A DNA stretch of 40,142 nucleotides from Candidatus Liptonbacteria bacterium (GTDB taxonomy: Bacteria; Patescibacteriota; Minisyncoccia; UBA6257; 2-01-FULL-56-20): contig JACQKU010000016.1 in NCBI GenBank assembly GCA_016204335.1, positions 1 to 40,142 on the forward strand, written 5' to 3'. A program made the position numbers and the translations under genes. Positions within the stretch are counted from its first letter, which is position 1. The number at the start of each line of letters is the position of its first letter. This document shows positions 22,461 through 37,370 of the stretch, piece by piece. The notes beneath the pieces were generated by a model that was not told where the DNA came from, searched no databases, and saw nothing but the letters and a program-made list of their open reading frames with translations.

Positions 22461-22539
22461 TGTGAGAATTATATCCTCAATATTTCTTTTTTTAAAGGTC
22501 TTAACTCTGGATGAGGAATAGTGTATTATTAAAGCAATG

Positions 22540-22678
22540 CCAGGTAGTGAAAATTCGACTTGTTCGCCGGAGGCGAACAAAAAGAATTACAATCTAAAAT
22601 ATTGCACTCATCTGTCATCCATTGAATCAAAAATAAGTATGGACACCACCAAAGTTAAGTCGAATTTCTACTACCTGG
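22540..22678. mobile_element. MITE-like structured element, copy 1 (139 bp), at the serS start codon
   Basis: CCAGGTAGTGAAAATTCGACTT ... AAGTCGAATTTCTACTACCTGG inverted termini; flanking AATG duplication at 22536-22539 and 22679-22682; internal hairpin TGTTCGCCGGAGGCGAACA. Confidence 0.8.
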
Positions 22679-22679
22679 A

Positions 22680-23912
22680 ATGCTCGACATAAAATTGCTC
22701 CGTGAGGAGCCGGAAAAAGTGAAAAAAGGCGTTGCGGCAAAAGGAGACGACCCCAAACTGGTTGACGAATTTTTGCGATTGGACGAAATTTGGCGGAAGC
22801 TTACGGCCGAAATTGAAAACCTCCGGCACGAGCAAAAGGAACTCGAGGGCGAACGCGATTTTGAAGCGGCGAAAGCGGTGAAGGAGAAAATAAAGGAGAA
22901 AGAAAAAGAACTCGGCATGACAGAGACCGAACGGCGGAACGCGTGGATGTCGATTCCGAATATTCCGTTTGAAGATATTCCCGCGGGCAAGAGCGAAGAG
23001 GATAACCGCATACTCCGCGAAGTCGGCGAAAAACCGGAATTCGATTTCGTTCCCAAAGACCACGCGGAGCTGGGCAAATCGCTCGGTATCATCGATTTCG
23101 AATCTGGTTCGAAAATCGCCGGTTCCGGATTTTACTTTTTGAAAAACGAAGGGGTTTTGCTCGAATTAGCCCTGGTTCGTTACGCACTCGATTTTTTGAC
23201 GGAGAACGGATTCGTTCTTTGGCTTACGCCGGATCTGGCTCGCGACACATTTTATCTCAGCACCGGTTATCATCCGCGAGGACCGGAAGCGCAAACCTAT
23301 ACCATCGAAGGTTCCGATTTGGGACTTATCGCGACTGCGGAAGTGACGCTTGCCGGCATTCATTCGGATGAGATGCTTGAAGAGAGCGCGTTGCCGAAAT
23401 TGTACGCGGGCTACTCGCATTGTTTCCGCCAGGAGGGCGGCGCGTACGGGAAATATTCGAAAGGTCTTTACCGCGTCCACCAGTTTACCAAAGTGGAAAT
23501 GTTCGTTTACTGCAAAGCCGGCGACTCGCCCGAACTGCATCAAAAACTTCTGTGGCTCGAAGAAAAATTATGGCAAGGATTGGGGATACCGTATCGGGTT
23601 CTTGAGATGTGCGCCGGCGATTTGGGCGCGCAGGCGGCGAGAAAATTCGACCTTGAGGCGTGGATGCCCGGCAGAGGCGACTGGGGCGAAGTTACCTCGA
23701 CTTCAAACACGTCTGATTACCAGGCGCGGCGATTGGGTATCAGATTTCGCGGCAAGGACGGCAACGTTGAATTTGCGCACACGTTGAACGGCACTGCCGT
23801 CGCGACTTCGCGCGCCATTGTCGCCATTCTCGAAAATTATCAAACCAAAGAAGGGAAAGTCGCGATTCCGAGCGTCCTTCAGAAATATGTCGGGAAAGAA
23901 ATTATCGGATAA
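22680..23912 (+). CDS. serS: Seryl-tRNA synthetase
   Basis: MLDIKLLREEPEKVKKGVAAKG, LIATAEVTLAG, CFRQEGGAYGKYSKGLYRVHQFTKVEMF, TSTSNTSDYQARRLGIRFR. Confidence 0.96.
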   Translation: MLDIKLLREEPEKVKKGVAAKGDDPKLVDEFLRLDEIWRKLTAEIENLRHEQKELEGERDFEAAKAVKEKIKEKEKELGMTETERRNAWMSIPNIPFEDIPAGKSEEDNRILREVGEKPEFDFVPKDHAELGKSLGIIDFESGSKIAGSGFYFLKNEGVLLELALVRYALDFLTENGFVLWLTPDLARDTFYLSTGYHPRGPEAQTYTIEGSDLGLIATAEVTLAGIHSDEMLEESALPKLYAGYSHCFRQEGGAYGKYSKGLYRVHQFTKVEMFVYCKAGDSPELHQKLLWLEEKLWQGLGIPYRVLEMCAGDLGAQAARKFDLEAWMPGRGDWGEVTSTSNTSDYQARRLGIRFRGKDGNVEFAHTLNGTAVATSRAIVAILENYQTKEGKVAIPSVLQKYVGKEIIG

Positions 23913-25014
23913 GCCGGATTTTGAATGTCCGCCCGGCGTCAGGACATGGATTGAGCTTGATGCCAATGCATGCCGGCGCAATGTCAGGACATTCCGGCGT
24001 TTGGTCGGTCCCAAAGTTAAACTCTGGGCAGTCGTGAAATCAAACGCGTACGGCCACGGACTCTCGACTTTTTCAAAGGTTATCGATTCGACGGACATTG
24101 ACGGGTTTTGCGTTGACAGCATTCTTGAAGGATTGCGCCTCCGGAAAGATGGCATCAGGAAACCGATTTTGGTTTTGGGTTTTACGCTGCCGGCATTTTT
24201 CGAAAAAGCGGCTTCAAATGATATTGCCGTGACGATTTCAAGTTTTGATTCACTGCGGGCGTTTGATAGAACAAAGCGAAAGCCGTTTTTTCATTTAAAA
24301 ATTGACACTGGCATGCACCGCCAGGGATTTCAAGAAGAGGAAATGCGGAGAGCGATTGATTTTTTGAAAAAACGGAAATTGCGCCCGGAAGGGGCGTATT
24401 CCCATCTGGCGTTTCCAGAAAGCAAGAAATCGTCGTTGAATCAGCAGAAAGTTTTTGAGCGGTGTTTGGAATTTTTCAAAAGCGGCGGCATTCGTCTCAA
24501 ATGGATTCATTTAAGCGGAACCGGCGGCGTTTGCGAGAGAAGGCCTTTTTACAATATGGTTCGCGTCGGCTTCGGACTTTACGGCTACTTCCGCCGTCCG
24601 TTCCGGAATAAATTTCTCCATCCGGTTATGAAATGGAAAACAGTCGTCACAGAAGTGAAGCGGACTAAAAAAGGCGGGAGAATAGGCTATGATTTCACGG
24701 AACGATTCAAACGCGACTCAACAATCGCTATTTTGCCGGTCGGCTACTGGCACGGCGTTGACCGCGGTTTATCGGGTGTCGGAGAAGTTCTGGTTCGCGG
24801 GTGCCGGGCCCGAATCATGGGCAGGGTTTCTATGGATATGATTGCGATTGATATTACCGATATTCGCGGTGTTCGAATCCGGGACGAAGTTGTGCTTATC
24901 GGCGGGCATGGGAAAGAGTTTATCGGAGCCGATGAAGTGGCGGAGAAAATCGATACCACGGCTTACGAAGTGCTGACGCGAATCAATCCGCTTATCCAAA
25001 AAATCGTCGTTTAA
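23887..25014 (+). CDS. alr: Alanine racemase
   Basis: TWIELDANACRRNVRTFRRLV...LWAVVKSNAYGHGL, HLKIDTGMHRQGF, GRVSMDMIAIDIT. Start overlaps the serS end. Confidence 0.93.
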   Translation: MSGKKLSDKPDFECPPGVRTWIELDANACRRNVRTFRRLVGPKVKLWAVVKSNAYGHGLSTFSKVIDSTDIDGFCVDSILEGLRLRKDGIRKPILVLGFTLPAFFEKAASNDIAVTISSFDSLRAFDRTKRKPFFHLKIDTGMHRQGFQEEEMRRAIDFLKKRKLRPEGAYSHLAFPESKKSSLNQQKVFERCLEFFKSGGIRLKWIHLSGTGGVCERRPFYNMVRVGFGLYGYFRRPFRNKFLHPVMKWKTVVTEVKRTKKGGRIGYDFTERFKRDSTIAILPVGYWHGVDRGLSGVGEVLVRGCRARIMGRVSMDMIAIDITDIRGVRIRDEVVLIGGHGKEFIGADEVAEKIDTTAYEVLTRINPLIQKIVV

Positions 25015-25020
25015 GCAATG

Positions 25021-25151
25021 CCAGGCAGTGAAAATTCGACTGGTCGCCGCAGGCGACAAAGAATAACGGCTAAACCCTAAATTATCCAACAACATAATGC
25101 CAATGCAAAAGTCGAGATTATAGATAGTCAAGTCGAATTTCTACTGCCTGG
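25021..25151. mobile_element. MITE-like structured element, copy 2 (131 bp), at the ftsQ-like start codon
   Basis: CCAGGCAGTGAAAATTCGACT ... AGTCGAATTTCTACTGCCTGG; flanking AATG at 25017-25020 and 25152-25155; hairpin GGTCGCCGCAGGCGAC. Confidence 0.8.
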
Positions 25152-25152
25152 A

Positions 25153-26082
25153 ATGGCTAACAAAAAAAGTTCTTTTTCGCTGTCGGATGTGTACAAAAAA
25201 GAAAATCGGCGCCGGCGCCGCGTCATTCTCGGCGTAATCGTGTTTCTCATTTACGGCGTTTTTCTCGGAGGGGCGTGGCTGGTTGTCCGCTCGCCGCTTT
25301 TTCGGATTCAAAAAATCGAAGTCGGCGGCAATCAAATGGTTTCGGGCGGCGATATACTCGCGCTTGTAAATCGGAGAATGTCGGACGGCTCTTTTTTGAA
25401 ACGATTGCTCGGAGCAAAGAACATTCTTGCCTGGCCGGAAACGCTTTCATTAGACGATTTAAAATTTAATCCGGAATTGAAAGGTCTTTCAATAAAAAAG
25501 GACTATAAAAAAAGAAGCGTTGTCGTCACAGTTGAAGAGAGGCGGCCGTTCGGCGCGTGGTGTCTCATGAAACCGCAGATTAACGCGGATGAAACGCTGA
25601 TAAACGCGGATGCGAGCAACGGTAATATCAGCGAAAATCTGCGTAGTAATCTGCGTGAATCCGCATCTTCATGTTGGTGGTTTGACGACAGCGGAACGCT
25701 TTTTGCGAAAGCCATGCATGTCGAAGGCAATCTCATCGCTGTCGTTGACGACTACTCGCAGAAAAATCTCGGATCGGGCTCAAACATTTTGCCCGGTGAA
25801 TTCATTCCGAACATATTTTCCATTTTTAAAGTGATTTCGGGCGGCGAGTTGAGCGTTAAGGAGATTCGACTCAACGATATAAATCTTCAGGAAATTGAAG
25901 TTGATACGTATGCGGGCTTGCCCGCCGGAGCTTTAGCGAAGGAGGGCTTGAAGCTTTATTTCAGTTTGCGGTTTCCGGCCGACAACACTCTTGCCGTCAT
26001 TCAGTCCTTGAAAAATCAGTCCGGATTCGACAAATTCCAGTATCTCGATTTCCGGGTGGAGAATAGGGCGTATTATAAGTAG
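25153..26082 (+). CDS. FtsQ/DivIB-like cell division protein (POTRA)
   Basis: Single N-terminal TM then FRIQKIEVGGNQMVSGGDILALVN; WFDDSGTLFAKA. Contains an in-frame repeat insert. Confidence 0.8.
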   Translation: MANKKSSFSLSDVYKKENRRRRRVILGVIVFLIYGVFLGGAWLVVRSPLFRIQKIEVGGNQMVSGGDILALVNRRMSDGSFLKRLLGAKNILAWPETLSLDDLKFNPELKGLSIKKDYKKRSVVVTVEERRPFGAWCLMKPQINADETLINADASNGNISENLRSNLRESASSCWWFDDSGTLFAKAMHVEGNLIAVVDDYSQKNLGSGSNILPGEFIPNIFSIFKVISGGELSVKEIRLNDINLQEIEVDTYAGLPAGALAKEGLKLYFSLRFPADNTLAVIQSLKNQSGFDKFQYLDFRVENRAYYK

Positions 26083-27098: not shown

Positions 27099-29180
27099 TT
27101 ATAGTTTATAAATAAATATCGATGTTCCTGCTTTAAAGTCCGGTTCGGGAACATTGCCCATTCCGACTGCCGGTTGCCGGAACGAAGTTAACCAGCGATA
27201 TTCATCATCAGGATTTCTATTCTGGCCCAGAGCAAGGGGTTGCGTTGCGCTTTCCAAAGTATTTATGGAAACCGCGAGCCATTCAATCGCGGATTTTCGC
27301 TGATTGTTGCCCAGATTTTCGCTGATATTATATCCGCGTTTATCCGCGTTTTCATCCGCGTTTATCTGCGTTTGTGAGGGGTTGCCGAGCGAAGACCGCC
27401 AGTCGATTTCTTTTTCTCCGAGATAGTATTTCGGGCTTCCGCCGCCGAAATAATCGACCGCGATTTTGTCGATTTCGGGATGGCTATCCACAAATGTTTG
27501 AAGTCGCAGCAAATCCTGTCCCCAGTCATAGTTTGAGTCCGTGGCGACGCGATACCCGCCCCGCGTGCCGCCGCCGAGTTCGTTGAAATACGACAAAAAG
27601 TACGGCGCCGAAAAAAACGCTTCCAACGGGAGCCAAATAAGGAGAACCGCAAAAATAGCATATCGCGCAAGGAGTTTCGGCAGCGCGGAGAGTGTCATTG
27701 CGAGCCGAAGGCGAAGCAATCCCGGCAGCTTCGGAAGATTGCTTCGGTCGTCCGCCGGCGCGCTTCCTCGCAATGATATTGTTCCAGCCAGCCATCGTTT
27801 CCAGGAACTCGCGGCCAAAATATAAATTAGGGGAATTGTCGGCATGAGATGGCGAAAACCGATGTTGAGCGGACTTTTCATGCTGTAAGCCCAGTAGAAG
27901 AGTATGAACACAATCATCGAGAACTCGGCGAAGTTAAGGCCGAGATAGTCGATGAAAAAATAACTTATAACTTTTAACTTATAACTCTTAACTCTTTTAA
28001 CAATCGCCCAGATGCCGAGAAGGAGCGCGATAAAGACAATGAATAGCGCCGGCAAAGGTTCCTTCAGGAGATATGTGACAGGAAAGTAAAGCCGTGTGCC
28101 GGTAGAGGACACTTCTCCGAGGAAATAATTCGTGTTTCCGCCGGACGCGCGCTGTGTCACCATCAGAACGCCGAGGAGATATTCGGCGAACGGCCGCGTA
28201 ACCGGATTTTTGCTCATCCATATGTCAAAATCCGCGACGCATCGCAGAGGTTTGCAGAACTTGCCCGCGGCAGGGGGCCCGTCGGCAAACGAAGCAAGAG
28301 TAAATTCCGTGTCGCTTACTTGTTTTTGAATCGGATAGTTGAGCGTGAAAAGGAAATAGAGAGGATAAACGACCAGGAAATAACCGATAAGAAAAACGGC
28401 GATGACCGAGCGGAAATACCGCCACGCGCGGACTGAAAATCTTTTCAGGCGCGCGCTCGAATCGGTTTCTTTCCAGTCGCGGGCGACTGTCGAGGCGAAA
28501 AAGAACGCGATGAGTATGAAAAAATACGGTATGAGAAGCACCACGGAGAATTTCATCAGTTGCGCCATGCCGAACGCGATGCCGGCAAAAAAAAGATTCC
28601 GTTTTGACGGCGCAAAGAGAAATTTGAGGAAAAAATAAGTTCCCGAAAGGATGCCCAAAGCCGCGCCGATATCGGTTGTGACGTAATGGCCGTGGGCGAG
28701 AATGGTCGGCGAAAAAGCGGCGAGAAGAGCGGGCAGAAGCGCCCATCGGTTTCCCAAAAGCTCCCGTGACCAGAAGTAAATCAGAATAATAAGTAGGAGC
28801 GTGAGAAGAATCGGTCCCATTCTTGCGGCGCGGACAATCAGGTTTGCGTCGTTGCCGGATTCATAGAGGAATTTCGCGCCCATTGTCCACTGTCCGTTGA
28901 TGTCTTTCGTCCAGGCGGAATCGTTTGTCGGGAAATTCGGATTCAGAAAAAGAAGCGGCAGAGCGGCAAGCGCTTTTACGAGCGGCGGATGTTCGGGGTT
29001 GAGCCGGTAGTCGAGATTATGAACATAGCCGTAGCCGGCCGGAATATGGGCGAGTTCGTCCATAATCGCCGAGTCGCCGAACGACGCCCAAAGCATAAGC
29101 GAAAAAGCCACCGCGCAGATGAGAGCGAGCGCGAGCAGAGGGAAAAGCAAAGGCGATTTTTCTCCAAGGAACCGCATCAT
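27099..29180 (-). CDS. GT39/PMT-like membrane glycosyltransferase
   Basis: MDELAHIPAGYGYVHNLDYRLNPEHPPLVKALAALPLLFL, many TM helices; carries three in-frame repeat inserts. Confidence 0.8.
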   Translation of the reverse strand: MMRFLGEKSPLLFPLLALALICAVAFSLMLWASFGDSAIMDELAHIPAGYGYVHNLDYRLNPEHPPLVKALAALPLLFLNPNFPTNDSAWTKDINGQWTMGAKFLYESGNDANLIVRAARMGPILLTLLLIILIYFWSRELLGNRWALLPALLAAFSPTILAHGHYVTTDIGAALGILSGTYFFLKFLFAPSKRNLFFAGIAFGMAQLMKFSVVLLIPYFFILIAFFFASTVARDWKETDSSARLKRFSVRAWRYFRSVIAVFLIGYFLVVYPLYFLFTLNYPIQKQVSDTEFTLASFADGPPAAGKFCKPLRCVADFDIWMSKNPVTRPFAEYLLGVLMVTQRASGGNTNYFLGEVSSTGTRLYFPVTYLLKEPLPALFIVFIALLLGIWAIVKRVKSYKLKVISYFFIDYLGLNFAEFSMIVFILFYWAYSMKSPLNIGFRHLMPTIPLIYILAASSWKRWLAGTISLRGSAPADDRSNLPKLPGLLRLRLAMTLSALPKLLARYAIFAVLLIWLPLEAFFSAPYFLSYFNELGGGTRGGYRVATDSNYDWGQDLLRLQTFVDSHPEIDKIAVDYFGGGSPKYYLGEKEIDWRSSLGNPSQTQINADENADKRGYNISENLGNNQRKSAIEWLAVSINTLESATQPLALGQNRNPDDEYRWLTSFRQPAVGMGNVPEPDFKAGTSIFIYKL

Positions 29181-32867: not shown

Positions 32868-32892
32868 GAAACTATAACTATATTTTCTGGTC

Positions 32893-32930
32893 TTCTCTAC
32901 AAACTCTACGATCGTATAAGTTGTAGAGAA
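32893..32930. promoter_or_regulatory. Concentric double palindrome (operator-like), copy 1
   Basis: TTCTCTACAA (32893-32902)/TTGTAGAGAA (32921-32930) around TACGATCGTA (32907-32916), same centre 32911.5; overlaps a -35 (TTGTAG) 17 bp from TATAGT (32944-32949). Confidence 0.75.
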
Positions 32931-33503: not shown

Positions 33504-33541
33504 TTCTCTACACTTCTTACGATCGTAGAAAATGTAGAGAA
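33504..33541. promoter_or_regulatory. Concentric double palindrome (operator-like), copy 2
   Basis: TTCTCTACA (33504-33512)/TGTAGAGAA (33533-33541) around TACGATCGTA (33518-33527), same centre 33522.5. Confidence 0.75.
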
Positions 33542-33596
33542 GCAGGCACAAAGCGCAAAAGATTATAAAGTTGAAAGGAGTATAAATTTAAGAGGT

Positions 33597-36834: not shown

Positions 36835-37012
36835 AAATGGAAGTATGATGTTATAAGAACCAATGCGGGCGTAGTACCCGCCTGCGCGGGAGCTTCGGCG
36901 GGCAGGCGGTGGCTATACGTTAGCCCGCCTACCGGCAGGCAAGTTCCCAAGCCCCGCGCTAAAACAAGATTAATGCGAGATTAGTACAGTGGCAGTACGA
37001 TTGCTTCCCAAG

Positions 37013-37144
37013 CCGGGTAGTGAAAATGCGGTGGAAAATTTTGCAGGTGTAGTATAGTGGCAGTACGCGACCTTCCCAAGGTTGTGGCGTGGGTTCGATT
37101 CCCATCACCTGCTCTGCAAGAGCAATCGCATTTCTACTACCCGG
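37013..37144. mobile_element. MITE-like structured element, copy 3 (132 bp), inside the tRNA-Gly gene and carrying a whole tRNA-Gly
   Basis: CCGGGTAGTGAAAATGCG ... CGCATTTCTACTACCCGG; flanking CAAG at 37009-37012 and 37145-37148. Confidence 0.8.
37043..37113 (+). tRNA. tRNA-Gly (anticodon CCC), nested inside the element
   Basis: GCAGGTGTAGTATAGTGGCAGTACGCGACCTTCCCAAGGTTGTGGCGTGGGTTCGATTCCCATCACCTGCT, complete cloverleaf. Confidence 0.92.
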
Positions 37145-37370
37145 CAAGCAATAGACGCGAGTTCGATTCTCGTATCTCGCTCATTTCTTCGCTCATCACG
37201 GAGTTGCGAAACACATACCCGACAGACAAAAGATTAGTTTTACATTTTGGAATGCGTAGAGTCGGTAAGCGAAGAAGCGCGCTCCGTAATTCGAAAAGCG
37301 AAAGCGGGCCACAATGACAAAAATAAATTATACTTAACGCATGCTTTGAATGGCAGGCATAAATATATTT

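Follow-up and report, generated by a model that had tools for sequence, protein, structure and literature searches.

A 131-nt hairpin element, bracketed by two copies of AATG, separates alr from an ftsQ-like gene in the window, the whole 40,142-nt stretch of DNA analysed here. We consider it quite probable that this element derives, as a non-autonomous, MITE-like form, from a small DNA transposon that encodes a GIY-YIG nuclease and targets start codons. Mobile elements usually harm what they insert into. As the present one inserts at start codons and its duplication re-creates the start, it can precede rpoB, serS, dnaA and ribosomal protein genes in genomes that are among the most reduced in bacteria. 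Should the GIY-YIG protein be the mobiliser, a fold known from bacterial homing and repair would drive transposition alone, as an enzyme of ~90 residues. The abundance of small GIY-YIG genes in Patescibacteria, and the unexplained short rRNA insertions of the phylum, may be due in part to the element.

The copy at the ftsQ-like gene and its companions

The window contains the following features:

25017..25020, + strand: AATG, left member of the 4-bp target duplication, where the start codon formerly lay
25021..25151, + strand: mobile hairpin element of 131 nt, read as non-autonomous and MITE-like
25021..25041, + strand: left arm, AGTGAAA type; G25030 and A25031 lie opposite T25142 and C25141
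25043..25057, + strand: inner small hairpin, GTCGCC-GCA-GGCGAC
25131..25151, + strand: right arm, TTCTACT type
25152..25155, + strand: right copy of AATG, whose ATG (25153-25155) is the start of the downstream gene
25153..26082, + strand: ftsQ-like gene, 309 aa, an ORF opened by the second ATG
22536..22682, + strand: second copy (AATG, element 22540-22678 of 139 nt, AATG), at the serS start
22680-23912: serS, with Pfam domains Seryl_tRNA_N and tRNA-synt_2b
37009..37148, + strand: third copy (CAAG, element 37013-37144 of 132 nt, CAAG), splitting a tRNA-Gly(CCC) gene

The preliminary description, which had placed an AATG-hairpin-AATG insertion between alr (stop at 25014) and the ftsQ-like gene, proved correct to the base. 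The termini of the element, CCAGGCAGTGAAAATTCGACT...AGTCGAATTTCTACTGCCTGG, form an imperfect inverted repeat, and the predicted RNA fold of 25010-25165 reaches -50.3 kcal/mol, compared with -27.7 +/- 3.7 in shuffled sequences (z = -6.2; 0/200 shuffles as low). The inner hairpin is kept in other copies with changed pairs, such as GTTCGCC/GGCGAAC and CTCCGAC/GTCGGAG. Pfam confirmed the identities of serS and alr; the ftsQ-like product has no Pfam match and only a sub-threshold NCBIfam match to FtsQ (E = 0.00057), and its homologues are present in 35 of the 38 genomes of the window's family.

The same description had proposed that the element is mobile and duplicated a start-codon tetranucleotide on insertion, to be checked at empty sites in relatives and against the alternative of a fixed leader. 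The proposal was borne out: within the family, paired arms occur at none of the 29 other ftsQ homologue loci inspected and likewise at none of the 29 other serS homologue loci inspected, so that these relatives lack both copies and the ftsQ copy is a lineage-specific insertion.

The serS and tRNA-Gly copies, also cited there, are both real. At the latter, the gene halves (36975-37012 and 37149-37182), when rejoined with a single CAAG, restore the fold of an intact tRNA-Gly(CCC), and the loop of the element holds a complete, different tRNA-Gly(CCC) (37043-37114), an apparent replacement for the gene broken by the element (window 36975-37182). The right-arm pattern matches five times in the window, against 0.28 expected. 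Across the window's own genome (0.7 Mb, 23 contigs), arm matches number 17 + 17 versus 1 + 1 for a reversed control pattern. This genome has about 17 copies, and the host genes include rpoB, rplT, prs, serS, a T2SSE-type ATPase and an M23 peptidase. One 74-nt copy lies in frame inside uvrC (L006; own genome C2:16596-16669) and is read through, in the context GVYIFYG-[GPGSENATARQRRAKNSKKVAFLLPG]-KKPLYIGKAS, between the two strands of the GIY-YIG domain.

Mobility, start-codon landing and folded form

The exact left-end pattern matches 84 stretches in 85,488 genomes, all 84 of them in Patescibacteria (Parcubacteria, Portnoybacteria, Yanofskybacteria, Nealsonbacteria, Gottesmanbacteria, Berkelbacteria, Doudnabacteria and others), and has no match in viral contigs. 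The family is thus, so far as seen, confined to this phylum. We parsed 131 paired-arm copies, which fall into size classes of about 58-78, 100-157 and 300-325 nt, and most of them show identical left and right flanks. The 4-bp duplication is mostly TATG, with AATG, CATG, CTTG, CAAA, TTAG, TTGA and CAAG also found; CATA marks copies in reverse orientation.

Movement by insertion follows from nested copies and from filled and empty orthologous sites. Copies of 71 nt sit within the left arm of another copy, between AAAA/AAAA duplications. For empty sites, LBYG and MFTO were too divergent to serve as a genome pair, and two Portnoybacteria species were used: rpmH reads TATG[141]TATG in one and a single TATG in the other, rpmE and a neighbouring gene are reciprocally filled and empty, and the dnaA copy occurs with and without a nested copy. 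On these sequence comparisons, we regard the family as mobile. The arms are much better conserved across copies than the interiors, which differ strongly even within one genome; constant arms around divergent interiors are unusual and count against a recently spread MITE. RNAalifold, run for one conserved inner RNA structure, recovered only the arms. Long copies (L052-L130, LBYG contigs) share the small hairpin GTTCGCC/GGCGAAC, several have a TCTGG/CCAGA helix, and their AGAAATTCGA could pair with the right arm in place of the left arm.

The excess of landings on start codons is overwhelming: 83 of the 85 NATG-duplicating insertions lie at an ORF start, compared with 25% of intergenic NATG sites (p about 2e-47, although the rows are not all independent, as a few copies are orthologous or nested). 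Beyond the window's genome, the hosts named by reading N-termini are dnaA, rpmH, ndk, rpmJ and others. A start-codon copy was seen at ndk in three species (L066, L089, L110) and at serS in two (the window, L126), which are possible hot genes for insertion. Other sites are also used, namely within another copy, uvrC, tRNA and between genes; 17 loci of non-start copies contained no rRNA insertion.

Two further suggestions of the preliminary description, an upstream 8-mer as insertion target and a Shine-Dalgarno signal cut off from its start, did not hold. The 8-mer AAGCAATG is common to two sites only and, judged from the flanks, is a coincidence: the consensus of 74 start-codon insertions consists only of (T)ATG after an A/T-rich stretch, with T before the ATG at 77% of insertion sites versus 44% of control genes. 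Shine-Dalgarno-like 4-mers precede 4% of the insertion sites and 15% of other genes at the same loci. Insertion at starts would be tolerated since the ATG is re-created by the duplication and the hosts show no Shine-Dalgarno signal that could be lost. We do not claim targeting of leaderless promoters, as enrichment of TATAAT-like hexamers 4-9 nt upstream of the ATG is only mild (28% vs 16%).

At the ftsQ-like gene, translation would proceed from the second ATG, whether or not the hairpin is trimmed from the mRNA. Simple initiation there is the default, since the gene keeps its ATG and no Shine-Dalgarno signal was lost. Trimming by RNase III is plausible, and removal of the hairpin from the RNA is not required because the duplication preserves the start codon. 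The potential leader peptide MPGSENST was rejected as a mere consequence of the arm sequence, its frame relative to the host gene not being kept.

Analyzing the arms, we further noted a fixed asymmetry, in which one arm reads AGTGAAA and the other, as reverse complement, AGTAGAA. In linear DNA both arms are fully paired; G.T and A.C are opposed only when the element is folded. In a scan left open at both positions, this tandem G.T/A.C mismatch was present in 108 of 109 copies and none was symmetric. At the ndk starts of two species the mismatch lies on opposite sides, with the orientation of the interior unchanged. Covariation is also seen at the other positions of the arms (0.894 Watson-Crick; re-dealt arms reach 0.846 at most). 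Conservation of the mismatch in 108/109 copies argues that the folded hairpin is the functional form; mismatch and covariation together are as expected if an enzyme reads a hairpin or cruciform. REP hairpins and their transposase offer a known case of an obligatory bulge (PMC8266576).

The coding element and its nuclease

Copies of 306-325 nt carry, within the same arms, one ORF of ~90 aa, whose product is a GIY-YIG nuclease (Pfam E = 2.3e-17). Six further arm-borne nucleases are 68-81% identical to the first, and in the parsed copies that reach about 300 nt no other protein was found between the arms. One copy of 125 nt (L056/L047) retains the coding sequence for TNQGSRLLKRMLKEYFYLDK, the C-terminal 20 residues of the nuclease; thus, deletion derivatives exist. 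In 13 of the 15 arm-borne nuclease copies, the element stops at the start codon of an ORF that runs in the same direction, and the nuclease stop codon mostly lies about 22 nt before the element end.

Among 389 Patescibacteria genomes, an arm-blind profile search with the nuclease proteins gave matches in 21. Of the 12 best protein matches, nine have inverted arms just outside the ORF, delimiting elements of 308-331 nt whose arms are diverged in sequence (CCGGGTAGTGAAACTTCGAG, CCCCGTAGAGAAATTTAGGA) and share the same core; most of the more distant GIY-YIG genes have no such arms. In a tree, the arm-borne nucleases are not cleanly one clade, and support is weak. The structure model (pLDDT 83) has UPF0213 and Slx1, a branched-DNA nuclease, as its nearest solved structures. 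No nuclease of the arm-borne clade was found at the cut-off used in the window's own genome, which is 93% complete. The ftsQ copy is therefore classed as non-autonomous, and the copies in this genome may be stranded.

Together, these observations suggest a mechanism in which the GIY-YIG nuclease probably drives movement. A structure-specific, Slx1-like nuclease would recognise the element as a folded hairpin or cruciform and cut at the hairpin base; it would also cut the target at (T)ATG with a stagger of 4 nt, and gap filling would duplicate the tetranucleotide. GIY-YIG homing enzymes are not known to produce 4-nt target duplications, which counts against this explanation. We give an even chance to a bolder reading, namely a new prokaryotic transposon superfamily with a structure-specific GIY-YIG nuclease as sole mobility enzyme, a mismatched hairpin as mobile form and start-site recognition, possibly by way of the initiation region or of the RNA made from it. 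The GIY-YIG clades bordered by different palindromes would then be sister families. The element is of a new kind only if the nuclease is the mobiliser, and with a passenger nuclease it would be a MITE-type element. In open papers, we found no description of GIY-YIG transposons, of start-codon insertion or of the present element.

Further small GIY-YIG clades occur in these genomes. Several (L136, L137, L138, L153, L162, L168, L096) adjoin or sit in tRNA genes, and the palindromes at their borders are of other kinds, notably CCTTCGACAAGCTCAGG-type repeats; L138 shows a duplicated tRNA 3' end. Another clade (L149, L152) has arms of its own (CACCTATTTAAGAC/GTCTTAAATAGGTG; a GCACC-type pair in L152), which suggests sister families.

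Related systems and rival explanations

MITEs resemble the present copies in being short and multi-copy, with inverted ends, target duplications and no gene of their own, and in being deletion derivatives of a coding element. In agreement, we found the terminal inverted repeats, the target-site duplication and a coding parent with the same ends that mark a MITE and its DNA transposon. However, the parsed coding copies carry only the GIY-YIG ORF, so that the parent encodes this nuclease and not a DDE transposase; the arms here also keep a fixed mismatch, and insertion is on start codons. Rickettsia palindromic elements are likewise mobile palindromic repeats of about 70-150 nt, and the uvrC copy is read in frame as theirs are. 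In contrast to their rule of in-frame insertion within coding sequences, of which uvrC is our one case, nearly all copies here stand before a gene, on its start codon, and there is a coding parent and a clear 4-bp duplication. REP/REPIN sequences, moved by RAYT (TnpA-REP), and IS200/IS605 elements share the folded hairpin with a conserved internal mismatch, and the arms here contain a GTAG core, as in REP (PMC8266576). Unlike those systems, which make no target duplication and use an HUH/Y1 enzyme, the present element duplicates 4 bp, has no such ORF inside its arms, and its coding copies carry GIY-YIG.

GIY-YIG homing elements of the I-TevI type, whether intron-borne or free-standing, are also selfish elements encoding a GIY-YIG nuclease that probably cuts DNA, and the catalytic domain is indeed present here. 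Yet there is no intron; instead of a single homologous site or one allele, many unrelated sites with target duplications are occupied, and the ~90-aa protein resembles UPF0213/Slx1. The closest published trace of the element is a remark on CPR rRNA genes, whose GIY-YIG insertions are not introns and do not look like homing; these genes also contain many short (<200 bp) non-intron insertions, and RNase III fragmentation was proposed for some (PMC11270868). Those insertions share the phylum, the GIY-YIG insertions not like introns and the short ORF-less forms with our family, and differ in being sited in rRNA genes. A Cas12a-repeat origin, considered because the right arm contains AATTTCTACT, was rejected, as the window's own genome has no PF18516 match.

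One alternative is that the GIY-YIG gene is a passenger and the arms are moved by another enzyme, from the host or absent from the assemblies. The gene is indeed missing from many copies, the window's genome lacks that clade, and other GIY-YIG clades of these genomes sit in different palindromes; yet no other protein was seen in the parsed copies of some 300 nt and longer, and the nuclease leads to arms phylum-wide, with the arm sequence changing along with it. We hold the passenger reading to be unlikely. Somewhat less likely still, in our view, is that the start-codon copies are domesticated cis-regulatory RNA leaders, whose hairpin, placed immediately before the AUG, controls translation of essential genes, selection on regulation keeping arms and position. 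The arms, far better conserved than the interiors, would fit, as would the compensatory changes in inner hairpins, the ndk and dnaA copies kept by both Portnoybacteria, and the concentration at starts of most copies above about 100 nt while many of 58-78 nt lie elsewhere. Against this reading stand the unrelated host genes (rpoB, rplT, serS, prs, the T2SSE-type ATPase and the M23 peptidase), the absence of the ftsQ and serS copies in family relatives, and the same arms in nested, intergenic, tRNA and uvrC copies. Regulatory use by some hosts is nevertheless possible, the ndk and dnaA copies persisting in two species.

The insertions might also be silent because the hairpin is removed from the transcript, by RNase III as in 23S rRNA intervening sequences or as a spliced intron. 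At about 20 bp, the stem has a length that suits RNase III, the CPR rRNA insertions (PMC11270868) provide a precedent of short non-intron and GIY-YIG type, and the tRNA-Gly copy would be harmless only if its flanks were joined. That broken tRNA-Gly(CCC), however, is accompanied by an intact one inside the element; a splicing element would be expected inside many coding sequences, where only the uvrC copy was confirmed, read through in frame; and Rfam gave no group I/II intron in the window, nor any Rfam family or intron in it or in 17 further loci. Removal from the RNA appears improbable. The most doubtful reading by far is a programmed bypass, in which the ribosome starts at the first ATG and skips the hairpin to land on the second, in the manner of phage T4 gene 60 or yeast mitochondrial byps. 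Matched codons do flank the hairpin, but direct initiation at the second ATG is enough, the duplications CTTG, TTGA and CAAA are not codon pairs, and tRNA, nested and intergenic copies are left unexplained.

The window also holds repeats of other families. GCGGAT-rich direct and inverted repeats (ATCCGCGTT/AATCTGCG; 25571-25664 and 27289-27373) lie within the ftsQ-like gene region and beyond it and form a separate family. A further short repeat family is represented by inverted 39-nt repeats, CTTCTCTACA...ACGATCGTA, at 32892-32930 and 33504-33542, relatives of which were found near uvrC.
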